Part shown: positions 48,494-58,762 of the stretch, piece by piece
Layout: each line of letters begins with the position of its first letter
Position numbering within the stretch: position 1 is the stretch's first letter
Assembly: GCF_004965515.1 (NCBI RefSeq)
Contig: NZ_SSHH01000001.1
Location: forward strand, 747,280-811,279
DNA from: Alteraurantiacibacter aquimixticola
Lineage (GTDB): Bacteria; Pseudomonadota; Alphaproteobacteria; Sphingomonadales; Sphingomonadaceae
Length of the DNA: 64,000 nucleotides
Reading direction: 5' to 3'
The notes under the pieces: generated by a model
The model's input: only the letters and a program-made list of their open reading frames with translations
Database searches by the model: none
What the model was told of the DNA's origin: nothing
Position numbers and translations under genes: made by a program

Positions 48494-48522
48494 GGATGCG
48501 GCTACTCCCGGCTCGCGCATCC
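48494..48522. terminator. Candidate bidirectional hairpin between convergent genes
   Basis: GGATGCG (48494-48500) and CGCATCC (48516-48522) are perfect 7-bp arms between the ends of the small gene and the convergent response regulator; the right arm reaches the regulator stop codon. No T-run. Confidence 0.35.
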
Positions 48523-49196
48523 TACCCGAGCGGGAGCTCCGGCTCGTCCGGCCGCGCCGGGCTTGCGAGTTTGGCCGGCACGCCAGCGTCATAGGCGATC
48601 TTGAGCATGCTGGCGGAATCCACCACGCCAAGGCGCCTTTTCAGGTTTCCCCTCGCCATCCTCACTTGATGCAGGTCCAAGCCGAGATCGGTCGCGATAG
48701 ATCGTGCGGGAAGGCCGTTGGCGATCGCGCTGAGGATGCGCATTTCCATCGGGTCGAGCACGGCCAGCCGGCTGCGGGCAGCCTGGCGGATGCCGATCAC
48801 GCTCAACTGACCGTGCAACAGCTTTTGGCAGCGCCCGAAGGCGGTCTTCAGATCTTGCGCGGAGAAGGGCTTGATCATGAAGTCGCAAGCCAGCCGCAGC
48901 TTGCGCGCACGCATCGCCATCGGCAGGTCGCTCCGGTCGACAAGGGTGATCACTGCGAGCTGGTCTTTCCGCCGCGCATCTATGCGTTCGAGGATGGAGA
49001 AACCGTCCGGCTGCCGCACGCGCATGTCGAGAAGGACGATGCCTGGCGGCAGACTGTCCAGCTCGGCGAGGAATGGCGTGCCATCGGCAAAGCTCCTGAC
49101 CTTGGCGTGCCCCATGGCGCCGAGCATGAAGTGCAGCGAATTACGCAGCCCCTCGTAATTGGCGACCACATAGACGGGGATGTCGCTAGCGCCCAT
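48522..49196 (-). CDS. FixJ/NarL-like regulator with degenerate receiver
   Basis: 224 residues, overlapping the end of the FixL-like gene by 11 bases. The receiver fold is recognisable and keeps Asp57 (VLLDMRV) and Lys109 (FMIKPF), but the acidic pair that binds magnesium is replaced by Ala12-Asn13 in YVVANYEGLRNSL. Phosphorylation is therefore doubtful. The C-terminal LuxR-type helix-turn-helix is LDPMEMRILSAIANGLPARS and LHQVRMARGNLKRRLGV. Coupled to the kinase, it could act as a phosphate-independent regulator or compete with the FixJ-type protein. Confidence 0.8.
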   Translation of the reverse strand: MGASDIPVYVVANYEGLRNSLHFMLGAMGHAKVRSFADGTPFLAELDSLPPGIVLLDMRVRQPDGFSILERIDARRKDQLAVITLVDRSDLPMAMRARKLRLACDFMIKPFSAQDLKTAFGRCQKLLHGQLSVIGIRQAARSRLAVLDPMEMRILSAIANGLPARSIATDLGLDLHQVRMARGNLKRRLGVVDSASMLKIAYDAGVPAKLASPARPDEPELPLG

Positions 49197-50364
49197 CGTT
49201 AATGCCGTCCGGCTCCGCTTGGATCACGCGGGGGACGGTAAAATGGAACCCGGCCCCGCCAAGGCTGGAGGTCTCGATCCACAGCTTGCCGCCATGCGCC
49301 TCGACAATCGCACGGCAGATCGACAGGCCCACACCCATCCCCTCGGGCTTGGCGGAGTTGAATGGCCGGAACAGCAATTGCTGCTTCTCGCCATCCATCC
49401 CGGGTCCGGAATCCTCGATCGCCACCTCGGTCATCGCGCGGTCCGGCTTGCTGATCACGCGAATGACGGCCTCTCCTTCATGCTTCATCGCCTGGAAGGC
49501 ATTGCGCAGGAGGTTGAACAGCACTTGCTCGATCTGCACGCCGTCGACCAGCACGGCATCCGCTTCCGGCGAGAGCTTCACCACTGTGTTGACCAGCCGC
49601 GCGTCACCGTCCGCCTGTGCCAGCGCCAAGGCGTTGGACACGAGACGGGACAGCGAGCAGCGGTCCATTTCGGCATCGCCGCGGGTCAGGAACTGGCGCA
49701 GGCGGAAGATGATCTGGCCCGCGCGCTCGGCCTCCTCGCTGCAGGCCTTCATTGCCTCGTGCAACTTCTCCCGATCGATTGGCGCACCGCTTTCGGCCAT
49801 ATGCGCCACCGTCTCCACGTAATTGCGCAAGGCGGTCAGCGGCTGGTTCACCTCATGCGCGATGGCGCTGGCGAGCAGGCCCATGGCACCCATGCGAAAT
49901 GCCTGGGCAATTTCCTCGCGCAGCTCCTCCAGCTTGCGCCGGTCGGTCTCGTCGGTTTCCATCCCTGCCATCAGGGCGATGAAGACCGCCTCTCCCGAGA
50001 GTTCCGCTTCGCCCAGGCTCAAGTCGATGGGGAAGTGCCGCCCATCCTTGCCGCGTGCCATCAGGTAGCGGCCGATCCCGATAATGCGCGGCTTGCGCGT
50101 CCGCATATAGGTGGAGACGTATTCGGCGTGCTGGTCCCGCTCTGAATCGGGCATCAGCATGGAGATATTGCCGCCCAGCATTTCCCTGCGCCGATAGCCG
50201 AACATTTGCTCGGTCATCGCATTGACGGCCAGGATCTTTCCCTCGGCGTCGGAGATCACCAGTGCCACGGGCAGGGTTTCCGCCAGCGGGCCGATCAGTT
50301 CGACCGTGGCCAGCTCGGGCGGGAAACCCTTGTCCTCCTGCGTATCCGCGATGGTGCTGCGCAT
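49186..50364 (-). CDS. FixL-type haem-PAS histidine kinase (oxygen sensor), soluble
   Basis: 392 residues from ATG 50364 (AAAGG upstream); ATG 50391 would add nine residues. No membrane helix. The PAS domain contains His79 in DQHAEYVSTYM and, exactly 20 residues later, Arg99 in RIIGIGR. These correspond to the haem ligand His200 and oxygen-sensing Arg220 of Bradyrhizobium FixL. The kinase core has the H-box AIAHEVNQPLTALRNYVE with His170, an N-box around LFNLLRNAFQAMK and the G-boxes DSGPGM and GMGVGLSICRAIVEAHGG. It should autophosphorylate when oxygen is low and pass phosphate to the FixJ-type regulator at 47280. Confidence 0.88.
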   Translation of the reverse strand: MRSTIADTQEDKGFPPELATVELIGPLAETLPVALVISDAEGKILAVNAMTEQMFGYRRREMLGGNISMLMPDSERDQHAEYVSTYMRTRKPRIIGIGRYLMARGKDGRHFPIDLSLGEAELSGEAVFIALMAGMETDETDRRKLEELREEIAQAFRMGAMGLLASAIAHEVNQPLTALRNYVETVAHMAESGAPIDREKLHEAMKACSEEAERAGQIIFRLRQFLTRGDAEMDRCSLSRLVSNALALAQADGDARLVNTVVKLSPEADAVLVDGVQIEQVLFNLLRNAFQAMKHEGEAVIRVISKPDRAMTEVAIEDSGPGMDGEKQQLLFRPFNSAKPEGMGVGLSICRAIVEAHGGKLWIETSSLGGAGFHFTVPRVIQAEPDGINDGR

Positions 50365-50454
50365 ATGATCCGACCTTTGCGGCGGCGTCATCCGTGGTGG
50401 TCACGAATGTCCTGCGAATGCAGCAAGCCGCACACAAAAGGTCAACCATCGCAG

Positions 50455-50512: not shown

Positions 50513-51904
50513 TCAGAAGCGGTAGGGAATGCGCAGGCTCACGGACATGTCGGGACTGTCATCGGTCAGGCCGATGCCGACATTGCTGACCAGTGCGAGC
50601 CGCGAACCGAGCGTGAAAGTCGCGCCCAGGTTCATCACCGCCACATTGGCCTGGCTGCCCACCACTTCCCTCACATCCTGCCCTTCGGGTTGCAGAATGG
50701 TATGTTCGACCAGGCGCTGGCTGTAGGACATGGAAATGCTCGACTTGTCGTTCAGCGCAAAGGCAAGCCCCGCGCCGAACTGCCAGGCATCGCCAATATC
50801 CACGCGGCCGGGAAGATCGCCCGGATTCTCGTCGATATCGTCGAATTCGCGCGCGAAATTGTGGAAGTAGGTCGCATTGCCGAACACCACCAGCGGATCG
50901 AGCGTCTTGAGCACCGATGCGCCGATCGATGCGCCATAGACCCCGCTTCCGGTGGCGAGAGCCTCCGGCACCTGCAGATTGCCTTCGCTATTGGCGACTT
51001 CGACGAATTCGATGCCGAAGGGATGGCGCCCGGTGGGAAGCTTCACGCGGCCGTTGAGCACCACGTCGGGCCGCCCGGCGCGTTCCTCCAACAGGCGGTA
51101 GCTGACCCCGGCGTTGAAATCGCCGAGCCCGGTATCGCGCACCGTCTCCTCGATCAATGCGGAGGCCGAGCCGCCCGCGCCGCCCGAACGGAAATTGGAG
51201 GTGCGTGCCAGCAGCGGCAGGTTGGCATCGAAGAACAGCCTGTCAGACACGCCGAAGCGCAAGGTCGGATCGAGCGTGAAGATGTCCGACTGCACCTGGT
51301 CGATGCTGATCGTGCCGAGGAAGATCGCGTCGAGTGCGAGGAAGCCGTCCAGCGAAATCCGCGCATTGTCGAAATGCGAATAGCTCAGGCCCAGGTCGAG
51401 ACCGATATTGCTGCCGAAGCGGCCCTGCTGTTGCTCGGAAATTTCGACCACTGCCTCGGTCGGGGCAGGGGAGCGGCGCTCGCCATCGGCGGTCTCGTCA
51501 CTTGCCCCGCCGGTCGCCGGTTCCGGGACCTGCGGCTGTGCGAGCCGGCTGCTGCCATTGTGGAAGTTCCGCAGGTCCTGCCGCCGGAAGAACGCCAGCG
51601 AGGGATCATCGGGGATCGAAACGGGCTGGCTGTCGATGAAGGTGCCGCGCATGCCGGCGGCCTCTACCGGAGAGATCGCGCGCATCGGCGTGCCGTCCGC
51701 GCGTTCCATGGCCGCGAGGCGCGATTCCAGCTCCTCCAGGCGATCGAGATACAATTGTTCGCGCTGTTGCAGTGCATCGACTTCGGATCGCAACTGCTCG
51801 ATTTCCTCGGCCGGGTTGTCCTGCGCCATGGCGCTCAACGGCAGGATGAGGGCAAGCGCGGATACGCTGATCAGCGCGGTCTTGGTGAAACTTGTGCGGG
51901 TCAT
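50513..51904 (-). CDS. FapF-like outer-membrane amyloid secretion pore
   Basis: 463 residues from ATG 51904 (GGGAGGA upstream). Signal peptide to AMAQ (about residue 28), then a coiled coil at residues 32-68 (heptads in EEIEQLRSEVDALQQ and LDRLEELESRLAAM), a Pro/Ser-rich linker, and from about residue 165 a β-barrel of alternating strands ending in the outer-membrane C-terminal pattern SVSLRIPYRF. A periplasmic coiled coil joined to a barrel is the FapF architecture that exports amyloid subunits in Pseudomonas. Last gene of the operon, as fapF is. The barrel alone could also be a generic transporter-type porin, but the gene order argues against this. Confidence 0.75.
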   Translation of the reverse strand: MTRTSFTKTALISVSALALILPLSAMAQDNPAEEIEQLRSEVDALQQREQLYLDRLEELESRLAAMERADGTPMRAISPVEAAGMRGTFIDSQPVSIPDDPSLAFFRRQDLRNFHNGSSRLAQPQVPEPATGGASDETADGERRSPAPTEAVVEISEQQQGRFGSNIGLDLGLSYSHFDNARISLDGFLALDAIFLGTISIDQVQSDIFTLDPTLRFGVSDRLFFDANLPLLARTSNFRSGGAGGSASALIEETVRDTGLGDFNAGVSYRLLEERAGRPDVVLNGRVKLPTGRHPFGIEFVEVANSEGNLQVPEALATGSGVYGASIGASVLKTLDPLVVFGNATYFHNFAREFDDIDENPGDLPGRVDIGDAWQFGAGLAFALNDKSSISMSYSQRLVEHTILQPEGQDVREVVGSQANVAVMNLGATFTLGSRLALVSNVGIGLTDDSPDMSVSLRIPYRF

Positions 51905-51924
51905 GATTGTGTCCTCCCTTTCGA

Positions 51925-52521
51925 TCAGGGGTTGAGCAGGGTCCACAGCGTGGCCGGATCGGGCACGCCGGTGGGTGTCAGGCTGGTTTCTTGCTGGAAC
52001 TGGCGGAAGGCTTCCTTCAGCTCCTCGCTGTACTGCCCGTCTTCCGGGCCGGAATAGAGGCCGCGAATGCTGAGCGCGGCCTGCGCGCGGCGCAGGATCG
52101 TCTCGTAGACAAGCGCGCGGTTCTCGCTGTCGCCCACCTCCAGCAGGCGCGAGAATTGCGCGACCCGCAGCGGGCGGAAGCCCACCACCATGCGTTGCGT
52201 GACGCTGACCAGCGGATCCTCGGGATTATCCTTGCAATGGCTGTCGAGGATCAGGTCGAAGGCCGCGGCATTGTGCCACGGCGTCAGGTCGAACGTGTTC
52301 GGCTCATAAAGGTTTGCCGCGCTCAGATAGCCTTCGATGAAGCCGATCATGCGCTGGTATTCTGCCGATTGCCGGTCCTCCCGCGCCTGGGTGAAGCGGG
52401 CGCAGGTGAGGACACCCACTCCCTCGACGGCGAATTGCCGTGTCTCCTCCTCTTGCGCACTGGCTGGCGCCGGCGCGACGGCCAGCATCAGGGCCGCAGC
52501 GGCCCATAAACGGTAAGTCAT
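51925..52521 (-). CDS. Exported peptidoglycan-binding protein in the amyloid operon
   Basis: 198 residues from ATG 52521 (GGGAGGAAC upstream). Signal peptide ending ASAQ. The N-terminal domain has LTCARF and FIEGYLSAAN and later DSHCKDNPED, a two-cysteine helical pattern seen in HdeA/Rap1a-like small periplasmic proteins. The C-terminal 55 residues are a PG_binding_1 domain (LYSGPEDGQYSEELKEAF, TGVPDPATLWTLL). There is no such gene in the standard fapA-F operon. It could anchor the secretion pore or the fibre base to the cell wall. It ends 20 bases before the FapF-like start. Confidence 0.75.
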   Translation of the reverse strand: MTYRLWAAAALMLAVAPAPASAQEEETRQFAVEGVGVLTCARFTQAREDRQSAEYQRMIGFIEGYLSAANLYEPNTFDLTPWHNAAAFDLILDSHCKDNPEDPLVSVTQRMVVGFRPLRVAQFSRLLEVGDSENRALVYETILRRAQAALSIRGLYSGPEDGQYSEELKEAFRQFQQETSLTPTGVPDPATLWTLLNP

Positions 52522-52557
52522 TCTTGTTCCTCCCCAACAAAGGAAACTGCTAAGTGA

Positions 52558-53403
52558 TTAGAAACCGTGTCCTTTCATGGCGCTCAGCGCTTCCTGCGCG
52601 CGGACGACTTCCATGTTCTGGATGGCGTCGACGCCGAAGATCACCGAGGCGCTGTTATCGACCAGGTTGTGGTCGCTGTTCAGCACGGTCTGTTGCAGGA
52701 CCTGACCCACATCGCCGCCGACCAGCTGGCTTGTGCTGTCCGTCCCGTTATTGCCCGTCATCACGATGCCCAGCTGGTTGTCCGCCAGGCGGAATTGCAG
52801 GTGGTCACCGTCGCTGAAGGCCAGGTTCACCGGTCCGTTCACTTCCTGCATACCGGCCTGCGACAGTGCAGGGACGGCGGACGAGGGCACGATCATCATC
52901 TGCATGCCGTTCGCCGTGCTGTTGTCCGCTCCTGCGATCACATTGGCCTGCGCGGCGCCGGAGAAATCGGCGAGTCCGCCGATCGGCGTCACATTCTGCG
53001 GCGTGATATAGGGGACATAGCCTTCATGGCTGTCCGTCACATTCATGCCCTGGTCGCCCTCGCGCGCCCAGGCGATCATCAGCTGCGGGACGGGCTTGCC
53101 GCCATTCGGGGCGGACAGGAAATCGACATTGAACACCAGCCGGGCGAGCGTGGTGACGCCGCTGGAATCCTGCCAGCTGGTGAGCATGGTGATGCCGAAA
53201 TAGGAAACCGATTCCGGCGTCACGAACTTTCCGTGCATATCCGACAGCTCATCATCCGCCAGTTTTTGGTGCCCGGCGAGCGCTGTCAGATCGGGCGTGC
53301 TGGCCGACACCGGGACGGCGCAGGCGAGAAGGGCAAGGGCGGCGAGCGAGCTGCCTTTCCCCCATCTTGCGGACCTGTTTCGACAGGCTGGTTTGGGTGA
53401 CAT
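52558..53403 (-). CDS. FapE-position secreted protein
   Basis: 281 residues from ATG 53403 with GGAGGAG directly upstream; the longer upstream frame lacks a signal. A signal peptide runs to about residue 34 (ALLACAVPVSAS). Then comes KLADDELSDMHGKFVTPESV and a Ser/Asn/Gly-rich β-type body with SVIFGVDAIQNMEVVRAQEA near the end. I do not recognise the family by sequence alone. It lies directly after the C39 peptidase gene (11-base gap), where fapE is found in Pseudomonas, and its size and composition suit a minor fibre or export component. FapE identity is inferred from order. Confidence 0.5.
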   Translation of the reverse strand: MSPKPACRNRSARWGKGSSLAALALLACAVPVSASTPDLTALAGHQKLADDELSDMHGKFVTPESVSYFGITMLTSWQDSSGVTTLARLVFNVDFLSAPNGGKPVPQLMIAWAREGDQGMNVTDSHEGYVPYITPQNVTPIGGLADFSGAAQANVIAGADNSTANGMQMMIVPSSAVPALSQAGMQEVNGPVNLAFSDGDHLQFRLADNQLGIVMTGNNGTDSTSQLVGGDVGQVLQQTVLNSDHNLVDNSASVIFGVDAIQNMEVVRAQEALSAMKGHGF

Positions 53404-53414
53404 GATCTCCTCCA

Positions 53415-54173
53415 TCAGAATGAAAAGCCGCGGGTGAAGCCGAACTCGGCGACTTCGGCTCCCGGTATGCTTGCGTGCAAAGCCATCAGGCGCCGGGCCG
53501 AAAGCGGCTCCGGCGGCTGCAGCAGAACGGTTTGCGGGTCGTATCCTTCGCCGGCGACGACGAAGACGATATCGTTCCACGCCTCTTCGAAATCGGCGCG
53601 GCTCATGTTCCGGTTGCCAAGGGCGGGATCGCCGATCGCGACCCTGTCGTCCCAGGCGCGGCGGACGACCACGAAATGCTTGTATCCGCGGATATCCAGC
53701 AACGCGATCGAGGGCACTTCAAGCGCCTGGATCGTGGCGTAATCGACGCGGTATCCTTCGGCTTCATAGCCGACCATCTGCGCGTAATTCTTCATGTCGA
53801 GCAGCGAGAAGCCCTTCTGCCGCACGATGTCGGGATCGGCGATCCGCAGCATGTTGACGAGGACTTGCTCCTCGGTCGTCTCGCGGCCGAAGGCGAAGTT
53901 GAAAATGGTCGCCATCACCGCGGCGCCGCAGCTGAAATCGGTGCGCTGGCGCACCAGATTGTCGAACTTGCGGTCCTGCCAGCTGGTGACGGAGACCGGA
54001 ATAACGGGGGCATTGGAAGAAACGGCGCCCAGCCACAGCGGCGTCGCCTGGCCGCCGGGTGCGCTTGCGCAGGCGGAGAGCAGCGCCGCGGTGCCCGCAG
54101 CGGCCAGGCCTGCCGCGATCTTGCGGCGCACTCTGTCAGTCGTGATACCCTGTTTGCCCATCTTAGCCTTCAT
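53415..54173 (-). CDS. FapD-like C39-family cysteine peptidase, lipoprotein
   Basis: 252 residues from ATG 54173 (54161 also possible). Lipoprotein signal with lipobox LLSAC (Cys35). The peptidase C39 fold has the oxyanion Gln76 and catalytic Cys82 in RQRTDFSCGAAVMATI, His166 in GYKHFVVV and Asp182 in AIGDPALGN. FapD is the C39 protease of Pseudomonas amyloid export and is needed for fibre secretion. Here it follows the major fibre gene after a strong hairpin. The predicted lipid anchor would place it in the periplasm. Confidence 0.85.
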   Translation of the reverse strand: MKAKMGKQGITTDRVRRKIAAGLAAAGTAALLSACASAPGGQATPLWLGAVSSNAPVIPVSVTSWQDRKFDNLVRQRTDFSCGAAVMATIFNFAFGRETTEEQVLVNMLRIADPDIVRQKGFSLLDMKNYAQMVGYEAEGYRVDYATIQALEVPSIALLDIRGYKHFVVVRRAWDDRVAIGDPALGNRNMSRADFEEAWNDIVFVVAGEGYDPQTVLLQPPEPLSARRLMALHASIPGAEVAEFGFTRGFSF

Positions 54174-54284
54174 TCGCCTGTGTGTTGACTGGTCTCTGCG
54201 CTCCGGTCGGAGGAGAGGTGGTCGTGCCCCCCCTCCGCCCGGAAGGCGGACCGTATCTGTTGGGGGCATCGGTCTCGCCCCCGG

Positions 54285-54312
54285 GCTTCGGCCGCCCGGA
54301 AGCGGCCGAAGC
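54285..54312 (-). terminator. Strong intercistronic hairpin after the major amyloid gene
   Basis: Perfect 11-bp stem GCTTCGGCCGC/GCGGCCGAAGC with a six-base loop, 18 bases after the fapC-like stop and before the fapD-like gene. No T-run follows on the minus strand, so it probably acts as a partial terminator or 3' mRNA stabiliser that raises fibre-subunit expression above the downstream genes. Confidence 0.6.
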
Positions 54313-54329
54313 TGACGGTTCGGTTGGAC

Positions 54330-55358
54330 TTAGCTGGGGTCGCCGCCGCCACCGCCATTGTCGGCGGGCGCACCCGACGACGCAGCGATGGTGAGAGCGT
54401 TCAGCTGCTGGTTGCCGACGCCTGCTGCGAAGTTCACGCCGACATTGCCGGAGGTCCCTGCGATTTCGAGGCCGGTCACCAGGTTCTTGCTGTCCTGCTG
54501 TTCCACGAAGCTGAGCGTCGCGGTCTGGATCAGGCCGGCATTGGCTTCAGCCAGCGTCGTATCGGCGGCAACAGCCAGGGTCAGCAGGTTGGCCTGCTGA
54601 TTCAGGCTGCCTGCAGCCGCGTTGACACCGATATTGCCGGATCCGGCGATCGTGCCGCCCAGCACCGTGTTGCGGTCGCGGAAGTTGTTCAGCGCACCGC
54701 CCTGCTCAACGTCATCCTCGGGGAGGATTTCACCCGGGGTGGCGAGATGCGAAACACCCAGCAGCGACTGGAACGACGTGGTCGAAGCTTCCGACCAGCC
54801 GCCCATAGCTTCCTCGGACGTGTTGTTCGAGGTCGCCAGCGTGGCCGAGTTCATCTGCATGTTGAAGTAACCTGCAGCCAGGTTCACGCCGGTGTTGCCG
54901 GAGGAATCGATCGCGAACGTATCGACCGTGTTGACCACCGGAGCGAAGAAGCCGACGCGGATCTGCGGCTCGAACATGCCGTCTTCCAGATCATCGTTCG
55001 GGTCGTTGCCGGCTTCGCTCCAGCCACCGCCGAAGACGGGATCGACATAGCCGTTCTCGCCGTTCAGCTCGTTTTCCTCGCGATAGGTCACGGCCACGCC
55101 CTGCTGCAGCTGCTTGACGTCGTTGACGGCAACAGCCGAGCTGTCGACGTTGACCACGCCGCGCACGAGTGCGCCGCCCAGCAGGCCGACCAGCTTCCAG
55201 TAGGTCACATCGGTGGTGACGCTGGTGTCGATGTTGTTGGCATAGGCAATGTCCACGTCAGCATCGACATTGACTTCCAGCGACGAGCCCTCCTGTGCAA
55301 GCACGGGAGTGGCGATCACGGCCGAGGCCGCGACTGTTGAGAGAAGTAACTTCTTCAT
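54330..55358 (-). CDS. FapC-like major functional-amyloid subunit
   Basis: 342 residues; AAGGAG precedes ATG 55358. Signal peptide to about residue 21 (VLAQ). Three imperfect repeats share the pattern SGNxGVNxAAGxxNxQxN and lie at residues 153-175, 240-262 and 303-325, joined by linkers of 64 and 40 residues rich in Asn, Gln, Gly and Ser. Three Gln/Asn-Gly-Ala repeats separated by variable linkers are the hallmark of FapC and FapB. The tail is Gly/Asp rich. Its size and position third in the operon match FapC, the main fibre component. It should be exported by the FapF-like pore and form extracellular β-fibres. Confidence 0.82.
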   Translation of the reverse strand: MKKLLLSTVAASAVIATPVLAQEGSSLEVNVDADVDIAYANNIDTSVTTDVTYWKLVGLLGGALVRGVVNVDSSAVAVNDVKQLQQGVAVTYREENELNGENGYVDPVFGGGWSEAGNDPNDDLEDGMFEPQIRVGFFAPVVNTVDTFAIDSSGNTGVNLAAGYFNMQMNSATLATSNNTSEEAMGGWSEASTTSFQSLLGVSHLATPGEILPEDDVEQGGALNNFRDRNTVLGGTIAGSGNIGVNAAAGSLNQQANLLTLAVAADTTLAEANAGLIQTATLSFVEQQDSKNLVTGLEIAGTSGNVGVNFAAGVGNQQLNALTIAASSGAPADNGGGGGDPS

Positions 55359-55378
55359 CGGTAGTCTCCTTCATTCAC

Positions 55379-56008
55379 TCAAGGTTGTCCCCCCGCCAAG
55401 ACAGTCAGCGAGAAGGTGTTGGCGGAGGAGTTCCTCTCGCCGCCGATCAGGTTCGTCTGAAAAAGGCCACTGCCGCCGCTGAAGGCGTCATCGCTTACGC
55501 TGACGCTGTCATTGCGATGGGCAGAGGCTGTTTCAGTGCCCCCGTACGGTTCGGTGGGCGCACGCGACTGTTCCAGAAGCTGGTCCGTCAGTGCGCCGGA
55601 TTGTCCGATTGCCAGGCTTGCCAGATTGGCCGACTGGTTGTTCGAGCCGGCAGTCACATTGAGGCTGACGAGCCCCGAATTGCCGGAAAAGGCATCGCCG
55701 GAAATGGTCACGGCGGTTGCGCGGTCGCCGGCAGCATCCATGCCGTGCTGGACCACGTTTTCGCTGGCGATGGCGACTTCGCCGATGGCCAGGGCCGCGC
55801 TGCCCGCCTGCTGGTTGCCGTCGCCCGCCGCCATGTTGACCGCCAGCCGGCCGGACGTGCCGGAGAATTGGCCCGCCTCGACGATGGCCTCGTCCTGCAG
55901 GGTTTCCTGCACCGGCGGCTCGTCCTGCGCCTGCACCGCGGATGCGGCTCCCAGCGCGGGGATCAGGGCGGCGAGGGCGGCTGCGTGAAGTATGTTGAGG
56001 TGGTTCAT
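55379..56008 (-). CDS. FapB-like amyloid repeat protein (candidate nucleator)
   Basis: 209 residues, overlapping the upstream gene by ATGA. Signal peptide to about residue 27 (AVQAQ). Three repeats of the form SGxSGxxxxNxxxGxxNxxxN lie at residues 49-76, 108-135 and 178-205, related to those of the downstream protein but with shorter linkers. Two adjacent repeat proteins, the smaller first, is the fapB-fapC arrangement, where FapB nucleates fibres. No cysteine is present. It is followed by the FapC-like gene after 20 bases. Confidence 0.78.
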   Translation of the reverse strand: MNHLNILHAAALAALIPALGAASAVQAQDEPPVQETLQDEAIVEAGQFSGTSGRLAVNMAAGDGNQQAGSAALAIGEVAIASENVVQHGMDAAGDRATAVTISGDAFSGNSGLVSLNVTAGSNNQSANLASLAIGQSGALTDQLLEQSRAPTEPYGGTETASAHRNDSVSVSDDAFSGGSGLFQTNLIGGERNSSANTFSLTVLAGGQP

Positions 56009-56508
56009 TGTCCGCCTCCCGCAAGCGCGGACAGGCTGCCGAGCGCGCCGTCCAGCGCGTCCATCGAACGATCGATGGTGGAAGTGACGACGGATCCCAC
56101 CTGGGTCCCGCTGGCGAGCTGGCTGCCGCCCCCTGCCAGTTCTACCGTCTGGCCCATCTCGGCCAGGGCGCCGTTCTGCATTTGCGGAGAAGTCAGCTGT
56201 GCGGTGACCTGCGCAGTCTCGCCATCGGTCAGCGGCTTCAGGCCGTTGTCGAGAGTCGAGACGACCAGGCGGCCTGGCGCCGTGACCACCCGGTGGGTCT
56301 GACCGGGAAAGTATGGCGCACCGATCGTGTGGTGGACGTCGCGCGACACGATGATCGTGCCGTCTTCCGGTATTTCGGATCCGCTTGCCTCAGCCTCCTG
56401 CGCATTGGCGCAAGTTGCGGAAGCAAGCAGGCCTGCCAGGATAGCAGGCGTAAGTCTGCACGCGCCGGGCAGCATGCCCCGGCGTAACGTCGCGTTGCGG
56501 CGGTCCAT
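56005..56508 (-). CDS. FapA-position exported protein
   Basis: 167 residues from ATG 56508, with GGGAGGA upstream. Signal peptide ends near CANAQEAE. The body contains DGTIIVSRDVHHTIGAPYFP and a Gly/Ser/Ala-rich C-terminus (LGSLSALAGGGQ). I do not recognise it by sequence. It is the first gene of the operon and is translationally coupled to the fapB-like gene, as the periplasmic chaperone gene fapA is in Pseudomonas, and its size is close to FapA. The assignment is positional. Confidence 0.5.
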   Translation of the reverse strand: MDRRNATLRRGMLPGACRLTPAILAGLLASATCANAQEAEASGSEIPEDGTIIVSRDVHHTIGAPYFPGQTHRVVTAPGRLVVSTLDNGLKPLTDGETAQVTAQLTSPQMQNGALAEMGQTVELAGGGSQLASGTQVGSVVTSTIDRSMDALDGALGSLSALAGGGQ

Positions 56509-56750: not shown

Positions 56751-57332
56751 TCAAAGCGCGCAGGATTGCAGCTTGACCCACATCTCCTCGCGGCAGTTCA
56801 CGCCCATCTTCTCGTAGCAATGCTTGATATGCACGCGGACCGTGTGGATGGAGTTGGAGTGGTGGTTGGCAATCTCCTGCGGTGTCATCCCGGCAAACAG
56901 GTCCTCGATGATACGTGCCTCGCTCGGCGTCAGACCGAACAGCGCATTGAGGTCGGGCAGCTCGCGGCGGTGCATGGACTGTGCGGAAGCGAGCACCCAG
57001 CACACGTGATCGGGGCCGGTGGCCGCGGCGTGGATGAAGAGCGGGTCGACGTTTTCTGTCAGGCCGAGGCAGGCTGATCCGCGCTTGCCTTCGGCCACTT
57101 CGAGCAGGCTGGCGACCAGCCGGGCATCTTCCTCGCACACGGCGCGGACCTGCCCGTCGATATGCGCCAGCAACTCCTGCTTGCGGATCAGCTGCCAGGC
57201 CATGCGGCATGCGGCGACAAGACGGCCGCTGCGATCGAGCAACAGACGCGCGCGCCCATCGAGGGCGGACTGTGCCTGCAGTAGTGCTTCAGCGCCTTCG
57301 CGGCCCGGCCATGCCGGCAATTCGGTGTCCAT
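56751..57332 (-). CDS. LuxR-type transcriptional regulator of the amyloid operon
   Basis: 193 residues. The C-terminal helix-turn-helix is LTPSEARIIEDLFAGMTPQE followed by IHTVRVHIKHCYEKMGVN. The N-terminal 125 residues look PAS- or GAF-like (LLLDRSGRLVAACRMAWQLI) and contain several cysteines, so a redox or ligand sensor is possible. No receiver domain. It is directly upstream of the Fap-like operon on the same strand and is the natural candidate regulator. Confidence 0.85.
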   Translation of the reverse strand: MDTELPAWPGREGAEALLQAQSALDGRARLLLDRSGRLVAACRMAWQLIRKQELLAHIDGQVRAVCEEDARLVASLLEVAEGKRGSACLGLTENVDPLFIHAAATGPDHVCWVLASAQSMHRRELPDLNALFGLTPSEARIIEDLFAGMTPQEIANHHSNSIHTVRVHIKHCYEKMGVNCREEMWVKLQSCAL

Positions 57333-57478: not shown

Positions 57479-58762
57479 TTAGAAGCTCCAGCCGAAGGAC
57501 ATGCCGAAGGAGGTCTCGGCGAGCCGGACATCCGCTTCGCCGCCGCCATAGGGCGCCGGGATCGAGCCGCTGCCTTCAACCGTGTTGCGCGGTGCGCGCA
57601 TGGCGAAGGCAGTCAGTTCCTTTCCGCCGCCAATGCCCAGCGTCGCACCCACGGTGAAGTGATCCTGCACCACGCCGGGGGCCAGGATGTTGATGAAGGT
57701 TTCGGAGGAGGGGACCGGATTGTCCGAGCGGCCATAGCCTGCGCGCAGGGTCAGGTCTTCGCTCACATCCACGCTGCCGCCGACCTTGAACACGGTGACA
57801 TCCTCCCAGCCGAAGCCGGGTCCGCCTTCCGCGCCGAAGGGTGTGCCGGTGAACAGCGGGGCGAGCGGATTGCCGACCGACTGGACTTCGGAATATTCGA
57901 TCCGCTTCACGTCCACGCCCAGCGTCACGCCCTCCACCGGCTGTACCGCGATACCCGCGCCATAGCTTTCGGGAACGTCGAAGCCGCCCTGTTGCGCGAA
58001 CAGGCCTGCGTAATCGTCGAAGCCGCCCGCCCAGATGCGCGACTGGTAGAAGGCGCCGACATTGATGCCCGGCGCCAACTCGCCCAGATAGCCGACGCGG
58101 AAACCGCCGCCGAAGGACCAGTCGGTGCCGTTATGGGTGAAGTGGGCAGGATCGGCGGACGCGGCGGTGAAGGGCTGGATTCCGGTCGCCCGGAAGCCCT
58201 GCACCAGCAGGATGGGCGATACGCCCAGCGAGTGCCCCTCGGCAAACTCCACCGCGATGGTGGGCGAGATGAAGACCTGCTTCAGGTCAACGCCCGCCGG
58301 GCCGGTGGCGCCAAAATTGGCAAAGGGATTGGCCTCGTAATCGGTGTTCATCCCGCCATTGCCATTGATGGTGAGCGCGACCGAGACATGGTCCGAAAGC
58401 GGGCGGACATAGCCGAATTCGGGCAGGATGAAGGGATTGGCGCCATTGCCCGAATAGTCGCCATCAAGGCCCGCACCATTGCCGGAAATCGTCGCGCCGC
58501 GATCGGGCACGAAGATCTCGACACCGAAATCGACGCGCTTTTCCAGCGCGGTGGCCGCGGCCGGATTGGTGGCGGTGGACAGCGCATCTTGCGGGAGCGC
58601 TATGGCGACGCCGCCCATGCCCTTGGCCTTCGCGCCGATGCCGTTGAGGAAGTATCCGTCGGTCGCCTGCGCCGGGCTGGCGGCGAGCAGTGCAAGCGCG
58701 CTGGCGGTGAAGGCGAAGGCCACGCGGGTGCGGATGGTGCGGGAAGCGGTGTGTGCGGACAT
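57479..58762 (-). CDS. OmpP1/FadL-family outer-membrane transporter
   Basis: 427 residues. Signal peptide ending AQAT, then the FadL opening [20 protein letters not shown] and [20 protein letters not shown] with the hatch-forming NPA motif, and a β-barrel ending [13 protein letters not shown]. These proteins carry long-chain fatty acids and other hydrophobic compounds across the outer membrane. It is divergent from the LOV regulator, so its expression may respond to light, but this is inference from position. Confidence 0.92.

Follow-up and report, generated by a model that had tools for sequence, protein, structure and literature searches.

The analysis of a 64,000-nucleotide stretch of the genome of Alteraurantiacibacter aquimixticola (Sphingomonadales; contig NZ_SSHH01000001.1, positions 747,280 to 811,279; hereafter, the window) disclosed a minus-strand cluster, located between positions 50513 and 56508, whose open reading frames correspond to the six genes of a Fap functional-amyloid system plus one inserted gene. 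In bacteria, Fap gene sets produce resistant amyloid fibers that serve in biofilms. The cluster, all of whose features lie on the minus strand, opens with fapA (56005..56508), coding for a small exported protein predicted to be a periplasmic chaperone. This is followed by fapB (55379..56008) and fapC (54330..55358), for the putative minor subunit (or nucleator) and major amyloid subunit, respectively, each with three repeats; by fapD (53415..54173), for a C39 cysteine peptidase and predicted lipoprotein; and by fapE (52558..53403), for an exported accessory protein of 281 amino acids. Then comes the inserted gene, for which the label fapX is coined here (51925..52521), whose predicted exported product has a helical N-terminal domain and a PG_binding_1 domain (Pfam PF01471, E-value 1.1e-12), and, lastly, fapF (50513..51904), for an outer-membrane pore composed of a coiled coil (recognized by eye), a linker, a plug, and a β-barrel. 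Start codons were chosen among in-frame ATGs. Most neighboring genes are separated by 11–36 bases; fapA and fapB overlap by 4 bases, and the fapC-fapD gap is 156 bases long.

The NCBIfam models of all six Fap families match the window proteins in the order fapA-B-C-D-E-F, with E-values of 1.3e-5 for chaperone_FapA (25.5 bits, cut-off 110), 1.6e-23 for FapB, 4.6e-21 for FapC, 4.1e-68 for FapD, 9.6e-22 for FapE, and 4.6e-109 for FapF. The profile search proposed as a check thus recovered the expected families in the expected order, although below their cut-offs. FapD is also matched by Pfam C39 (2.9e-20), and its Cys, His, and Asp motifs bear out the C39 triad that the original prediction, made from the letters of this DNA, had read in it. 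The same prediction had described seven genes colinear with the Pseudomonas fapABCDEF operon, which holds for six of them, the seventh being the inserted gene.

In order to place the cluster in a wider context, a scan of genomes with a FapF alignment was carried out, which retrieved 46 loci. Twenty-two of them are alphaproteobacterial (Altererythrobacter, Erythrobacter, Pontixanthobacter, Allopontixanthobacter, Parasphingorhabdus, Sphingomonas edaphi, and metagenome bins) and 24 are from Gamma- and Betaproteobacteria (Pseudomonas, Stenotrophomonas, Xanthomonas, Pseudoxanthomonas, Lysobacter, another Lysobacteraceae, and one Laribacter bin). The gene fapA was found in 20/22 alphaproteobacterial loci, one of the two misses lying at a contig end. 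Within the Sphingomonadales, the FapF model matches 35 out of 196 genomes, 8 of them strongly (>330 bits; type-1 loci). In these eight, the genes from fapB to fapF occur in order, with the only exception of L025, where the contig ends before fapB; fapA was detected in six, being not detected in L024 and cut off in L025. At least five of the eight also belong to the 46-locus set (L104, L107, L111, L121, and L149), so that the two sets are not independent. A further operon, with the organization B-C-D-E-X-F, is harbored by genome G317, from another alphaproteobacterial order. The survey of the Sphingomonadales that had been suggested therefore recovers the same order of genes, and its recurrence in alphaproteobacterial loci indicates that the arrangement goes beyond chance.

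The presence of two repeat proteins, also anticipated from the letters, was confirmed by a repeat model (built partly from the window FapB and FapC), which locates three repeats in each of them, at residues 50-76, 109-136, and 178-203 of FapB and 151-178, 239-265, and 301-328 of FapC. Three repeats are reported for about 94% of the FapB and FapC surveyed in a 2025 structure paper (PMC12392863; here and below, statements on cited papers refer to the parts of their text that were available). By sequence, FapC matches the cryo-electron microscopy FapC entries 9nqd and 9u4u, both released in 2025, with E-values of 2.0e-9 and 2.6e-9. The structure prediction envisaged for the 54330 protein, i.e., FapC, points in the same direction, the best PDB match of its AlphaFold2 model being 9u4u (E 2e-6; template-modeling score 0.57 by target length and 0.27 by query length), followed by FapC 9nqd (E 0.067) and E. 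coli CsgA (0.4). In this model, obtained from 19 alphaproteobacterial FapC sequences, the three repeat blocks reach a predicted local distance difference test score (pLDDT) of about 83–85, the rest of the model being poor. The FapC of G317 (L151:11297-12292) shows, by eye, four repeats instead of three. A C-terminal CxxC, a motif of Pseudomonas FapC, is absent in 34/34 of the FapC found (23 from Alpha- and 11 from Gammaproteobacteria), an absence from which nothing follows, since Pseudomonas FapC was not recovered by the model.

As for FapF, a coiled coil joined to a β-barrel pore had been expected. The barrel is confirmed by a sequence match to the crystal structure 5o65 (8.7e-82 over residues 142-463), while the coiled coil corresponds to an N-terminus that is heptad-like by eye. 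The first of the PTG motifs is kept and the second is ATG. It is known that in Pseudomonas the FapF residues E98, F102, R157, and K401 are needed for secretion; R157 is conserved in the window, as it is in 17/22 alphaproteobacterial loci, and K401 is replaced by Arg in the window and in all 22 of them.

Some of these data weigh against assigning the cluster to Fap: all six NCBIfam matches score under their equivalog cut-offs, the mean pLDDT of the window FapC model is only 59.8, and the FapF positions E98 and F102 are occupied by Gln and Arg. Regarding the first point, the equivalog cut-off serves for naming and does not define the system, since the FapE model matches 20/398 genomes of the phylum, of which only 7 pass. 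Regarding the last one, Gln is found at the E98 position in 13/24 gamma- and betaproteobacterial FapF, and both positions vary among these 24 sequences, so that they are not treated as defining. On the basis of the gene order, the six family models, the solved relatives of FapF and FapC, the three repeats per subunit, and the FapC-like predicted fold, the locus is very probably a Fap functional-amyloid biogenesis operon. It is a Sphingomonadales variant of Fap, distinguished by the presence of fapX, by a FapD resembling a lipoprotein, and by a motif in the FapF linker; only the first of these is common to the G317 operon.

In the FapF phylogenetic tree, the sequences from Sphingomonadales join together (support 92/88), apart from those of Gamma- and Betaproteobacteria (98/95). 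The FapF of G317 is placed weakly beside the latter (84/44), and because of this weak placement the tree does not establish a single group for all Alphaproteobacteria. Since its closest relatives are Sphingomonadales, the operon can be considered alphaproteobacterial. The patchy presence of the system, with a strong FapF in 8/196 genomes of the order, might suggest a recent horizontal transfer of the operon from a gammaproteobacterium; this appears very unlikely in view of the two groups just described and of best-segment identities to Pseudomonas of only 36–44%. The distribution of Fap was given as confined to Beta-, Gamma-, and Deltaproteobacteria in the available text of a 2013 survey (PMC3792158). 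Surveys of 2018 and 2025 found many new Fap taxa, the former reporting 25 additional genera (PMC6173800), with no mention of Alphaproteobacteria in its available text. In a literature search on open-licence papers (text without figures or supplements), no paper placing Fap in Alphaproteobacteria was among the matches listed. The expected extension of the system to Alphaproteobacteria holds as far as the presence of the operon and its closest relatives are concerned; given the taxa added by the later surveys, a first Fap in Alphaproteobacteria cannot be claimed.

The gene fapX is located between fapE and fapF in all the 22 alphaproteobacterial loci, and no fapX match was obtained in the 24 gamma- and betaproteobacterial ones (in the Laribacter locus L136, fapE was not found either, so that only the space before fapF was judged); the FapX model behind these counts was built from the eight strong-FapF genomes. 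Within the order, with up to 16 candidates scored per genome, FapX exceeds 270 bits in exactly those 8/196 genomes. The window gene is single copy in its genome. The AlphaFold2 model of FapX (mean pLDDT 82) consists of a helical N-terminal domain and a peptidoglycan-binding C-terminus, and the cysteines C40 and C96 are invariant in 22 sequences. A match to HdeA falls under the Pfam cut-off, and the YmgD match of the fold search was discarded (E 2.8, which is not evidence). That the N-terminal fold had no match with E <0.001 in this search counts against the explanation proposed for the locus. Weaker full-length relatives exist outside fap operons (115–166 bits, 12 matches in 11/196 genomes), which might suggest that fapX was caught up in the operon as a passenger, its actual role being a general one in the cell wall, unconnected to the fibers. 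This is rather unlikely, considering its fixed place in 22/22 alphaproteobacterial loci and in G317 as well, and its co-occurrence with a strong FapF in 8/8 such genomes among the 196. The 12 outside loci share no common neighborhood, in that a few neighbor families recur in three loci and none in most; among these Sphingomonadales orphans (L163-L174), there is one in each of L163, L165, and L167 that adjoins the same exported-protein family. A FapX-like gene (L154:168-1112) also lies beside a locus with a weaker FapD/FapF pair (type 2, see below) in the alphaproteobacterial genome G332.

The FapD sequences share the motif DFSCG or DYSCG in 46/46 cases; in the window, the codon of the catalytic Cys (motif DFSCG, 53928..53930) encodes a residue invariant in alignment A4. 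The export of FapD was judged by eye from its N-terminus, and a pattern search of FapD N-termini revealed a lipobox (LSAC, 54069..54080) in the window and in 19/22 alphaproteobacterial loci, the remaining three (L106, L117, and L135) being assigned by eye; because of this lipobox, the FapD of Sphingomonadales is probably a lipoprotein. The gammaproteobacterial FapD (23 loci) resemble ordinary signal-peptidase-I substrates, 3/23 matching the lipobox pattern inside the hydrophobic core and being judged non-lipoprotein by eye; the FapD of G317 also looks signal-peptidase-I-like by eye. In Pseudomonas, FapD and its active-site Cys are required for FapC secretion, which is abolished by a Cys-to-Ala change (Rouse et al., PMC5557850). 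According to the available text of the same paper, complete N-terminal processing is seen in FapE alone among the Fap proteins, which have no canonical C39 sequences; the target of FapD was called unclear in this 2017 paper, and a 2018 review still described it as "yet to be determined" (PMC6173800).

A motif resembling the leaders cut by C39 peptidases (consensus taken from PMC6363468) can be recognized at residues 48-59 of FapE (LADDELSDMHGK, 53227..53262), where it reads L(-12)ADD-E(-8)-L(-7)-SD-M(-4)-H-G(-2)-K(-1), and is proposed as the FapD site. The motif is present in 67/69 FapE from Alpha- and Gammaproteobacteria and from further genomes of the phylum. The set comprises the window, 22 alphaproteobacterial and 23 gammaproteobacterial loci, 22 matches from the further genomes, and G317; it includes the window copy twice (L099) and three matches from genome G647, and Laribacter L136 gave none. 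The motif was missed in L103 and in L101, although the latter sequence comes close to it when inspected by eye. The pattern fixes residue classes at P12, P8, P7, P4, P3, P2, and P1′, leaving only P10 and P1 unforced; at these two positions, Asp occurs in 66/67 and Lys or Arg in 67/67 of the motifs. Under a stricter pattern, 6/8 type-1 FapE match (L023 and L024 do not), and FapE is the only one among 11 window genes to fit. On the basis of this conserved motif, FapE can be proposed as a candidate FapD substrate, open to experimental test, and the FapF of this operon is perhaps another.

A second, weaker class of FapF (115–182 bits) was found in 20/196 genomes of the order. In all of these type-2 loci (L031-L050), the FapF and FapD homologs lie close together, and 19/20 also contain f2, whose two termini resemble those of FapE by eye, and a small f3. 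In other alphaproteobacterial families, FapD is located beside FapF in 10/11 of the weaker-class loci examined. The pairing was already known, a 2018 review having recorded fapD-fapF pairs from five additional phyla (PMC6173800); what this analysis adds for the type-2 loci are leader motifs in both f2 and f3, i.e., Arg-Gly-Gly at the FapE-like site in 19/19 f2 and a similar Gly-Gly in 13/19 f3. Under the stricter pattern, 19/735 genes around type-1 and type-2 loci match within their first 130 residues, and all of them are FapE, f2, f3, or FapF. The partner proteins of the type-2 loci are long and of low complexity; the three scanned gave no family match, and no FapB/FapC was found in 19/20 loci. 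The FapB/FapC repeat model has no match in the 331 genes of loci L031-L053, but this model is narrow, as it misses even the FapB/FapC-like genes of L040 that are matched by NCBIfam, and the look-alike C-termini of the partner proteins are at best putative Fap repeats. The L040 genes (L040:8704-12281) are three FapB/FapC-like paralogs of 342, 290, and 268 amino acids beside FapD, and the locus is perhaps intermediate between the two types. The company of other proteins that FapD/FapF pairs keep in type-2 loci, together with the fact that amyloid formation in the window is deduced from genes, raises the alternative of a Fap-derived export system carrying a non-amyloid adhesin; the match of the FapC repeats and predicted fold to solved FapC fibers makes it highly improbable for the window operon.

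Two observations argue against cleavage at the FapE motif: its P1 residue is Lys or Arg, instead of the Gly, Ala, or Ser of classical C39 sites, and no Pseudomonas FapE peptides fall in the first ~70 residues (the motif being near residue 40), so that a cut at that very place is not directly shown. The same P1 residues, constant in the 67 located motifs, would also suit a docking or secretion signal recognized by FapD or FapF and left uncut, as with the C39-like domains of type I secretion systems that have lost their activity; moreover, some C39 subsets act as chaperones only (PMC6173800). The catalytic Cys motif kept in every FapD and the loss of secretion upon its change to Ala in Pseudomonas speak for a peptidase at work, as does the true Gly-Gly that the type-2 FapE-like proteins carry at the matching place (19/19). 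A docking signal is thus possible, if somewhat doubtful.

A FapE-like motif also occurs in the FapF linker of the window, at residues 77-89 (ISPVEAAGMRGTF, 51638..51676), and might represent a second FapD site. It has the form [ILV]xxx(acidic in 21/23)xxx[MLIV]-Arg-Gly, comes after the coiled coil, and is present in 23/23 Sphingomonadales (the window plus 22 loci); it was found in 0/24 gamma- and betaproteobacterial FapF and is absent in G317. In an alignment of eight FapF (A1), R86 and G87 are the only invariant residues between positions 62 and 147. The core pattern of the linker also occurs in 14/631 unrelated neighboring genes, and a looser form in 6/32 type-2 FapF pieces; since orthologs are not independent, none of the motif counts can be read as a probability. 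At the aligned position -7, Ala usually takes the place of Leu, so that the window FapF fails the stricter leader pattern. In one type-2 FapF (L157:6984-8384), the linker contains a textbook double-glycine leader (LSDDELGEARGG). A cut by FapD just before the FapF plug had been the object of speculation by Rouse et al. (PMC5557850).

As regards the genes flanking the operon, a LuxR-type (GerE) regulator is encoded upstream on the same strand (56751..57332; Pfam GerE 1e-7), and a same-strand LuxR gene is also located upstream in 16 of the 19 alphaproteobacterial loci holding upstream sequence; this gene is probably the operon regulator. Still further upstream lies a gene for a FadL/TodX-type outer-membrane transporter (57479-58762), and directly downstream of fapF there is a pair formed by a FixL/FixJ-like PAS histidine kinase and its response regulator (48522-50391). 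Neither was retained as part of the Fap system: none of the seven other type-1 loci shows a FadL or FixL match, and a FixJ match in the vicinity of fapF, encoded on the opposite strand, is limited to L025.

Gene identity and order were determined by computation, and from them we infer how fibers might be formed and secreted, where FapD might cut, and what FapX might do. By analogy with Pseudomonas, FapB, FapC, and FapE would enter the periplasm by Sec, FapA would hold the subunits unfolded, a FapF trimer would export them across the outer membrane, and FapB would nucleate FapC into cross-β fibers of stacked three-repeat units. The predicted lipid-tethered FapD would cut FapE after the Gly-[Lys/Arg] of its leader-like motif; the FapF linker may be cut by FapD as well, which would free the barrel from the coiled coil, while FapX would bind peptidoglycan and hold or chaperone the machinery between the wall and the pore. 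A unifying reading, which we put forward only tentatively, is that Fap uses, in the periplasm, a variant of the double-glycine leader code, in which FapD would cut FapE after the Gly-[Lys/Arg] of a motif conserved across Alpha- and Gammaproteobacteria; the same code would have arisen in the FapF linker of Sphingomonadales, where the lipid-tethered FapD would cut and gate the pore, and FapX would be a wall-bound seventh component. The comparison of distant Fap operons thus yields a single conserved candidate FapD site in FapE and, within one clade, a second candidate in the FapF linker. It also makes fapX a candidate seventh component, open to experimental test in an alphaproteobacterial genome that gave no CsgG match.

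Among known systems, curli (csg) is, like Fap, a functional amyloid exported through the outer membrane; it was discarded for this genome, which has no CsgG match in a search that was positive in 4/14 control genomes. The putative FilB/FilC pilus system has a related C39 peptidase and pore (FilB 4.7e-32, FilC 1.5e-21), and it was rejected as well, the scores of 111.5 bits for FilB (cut-off 475) and 77.2 for FilC (cut-off 630) comparing with 229 for FapD and 365 for FapF. The type-2 loci share FapD, FapF, and the FapE-like f2 with its leader motif, and differ by their low-complexity partners in place of recognizable FapB/FapC. The Fap operons of Xanthomonadaceae/Lysobacteraceae (Stenotrophomonas, Xanthomonas, and Lysobacter) have neither fapX nor the FapF linker motif, and their FapD signal peptides were judged not to be lipoprotein-like; they have in common with the window the gene order, the Gln at E98, and the FapE motif. 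Finally, with respect to the fapABCDEF operons of Pseudomonas (UK4, PAO1, and others), the window is set apart by fapX before fapF, the FapD lipobox, the Arg-Gly motif of the FapF linker, and the replacement of FapF E98 and F102, whereas the six genes in order, the FapF barrel, the C39 FapD, and the three repeats in FapB and FapC are the same in both.

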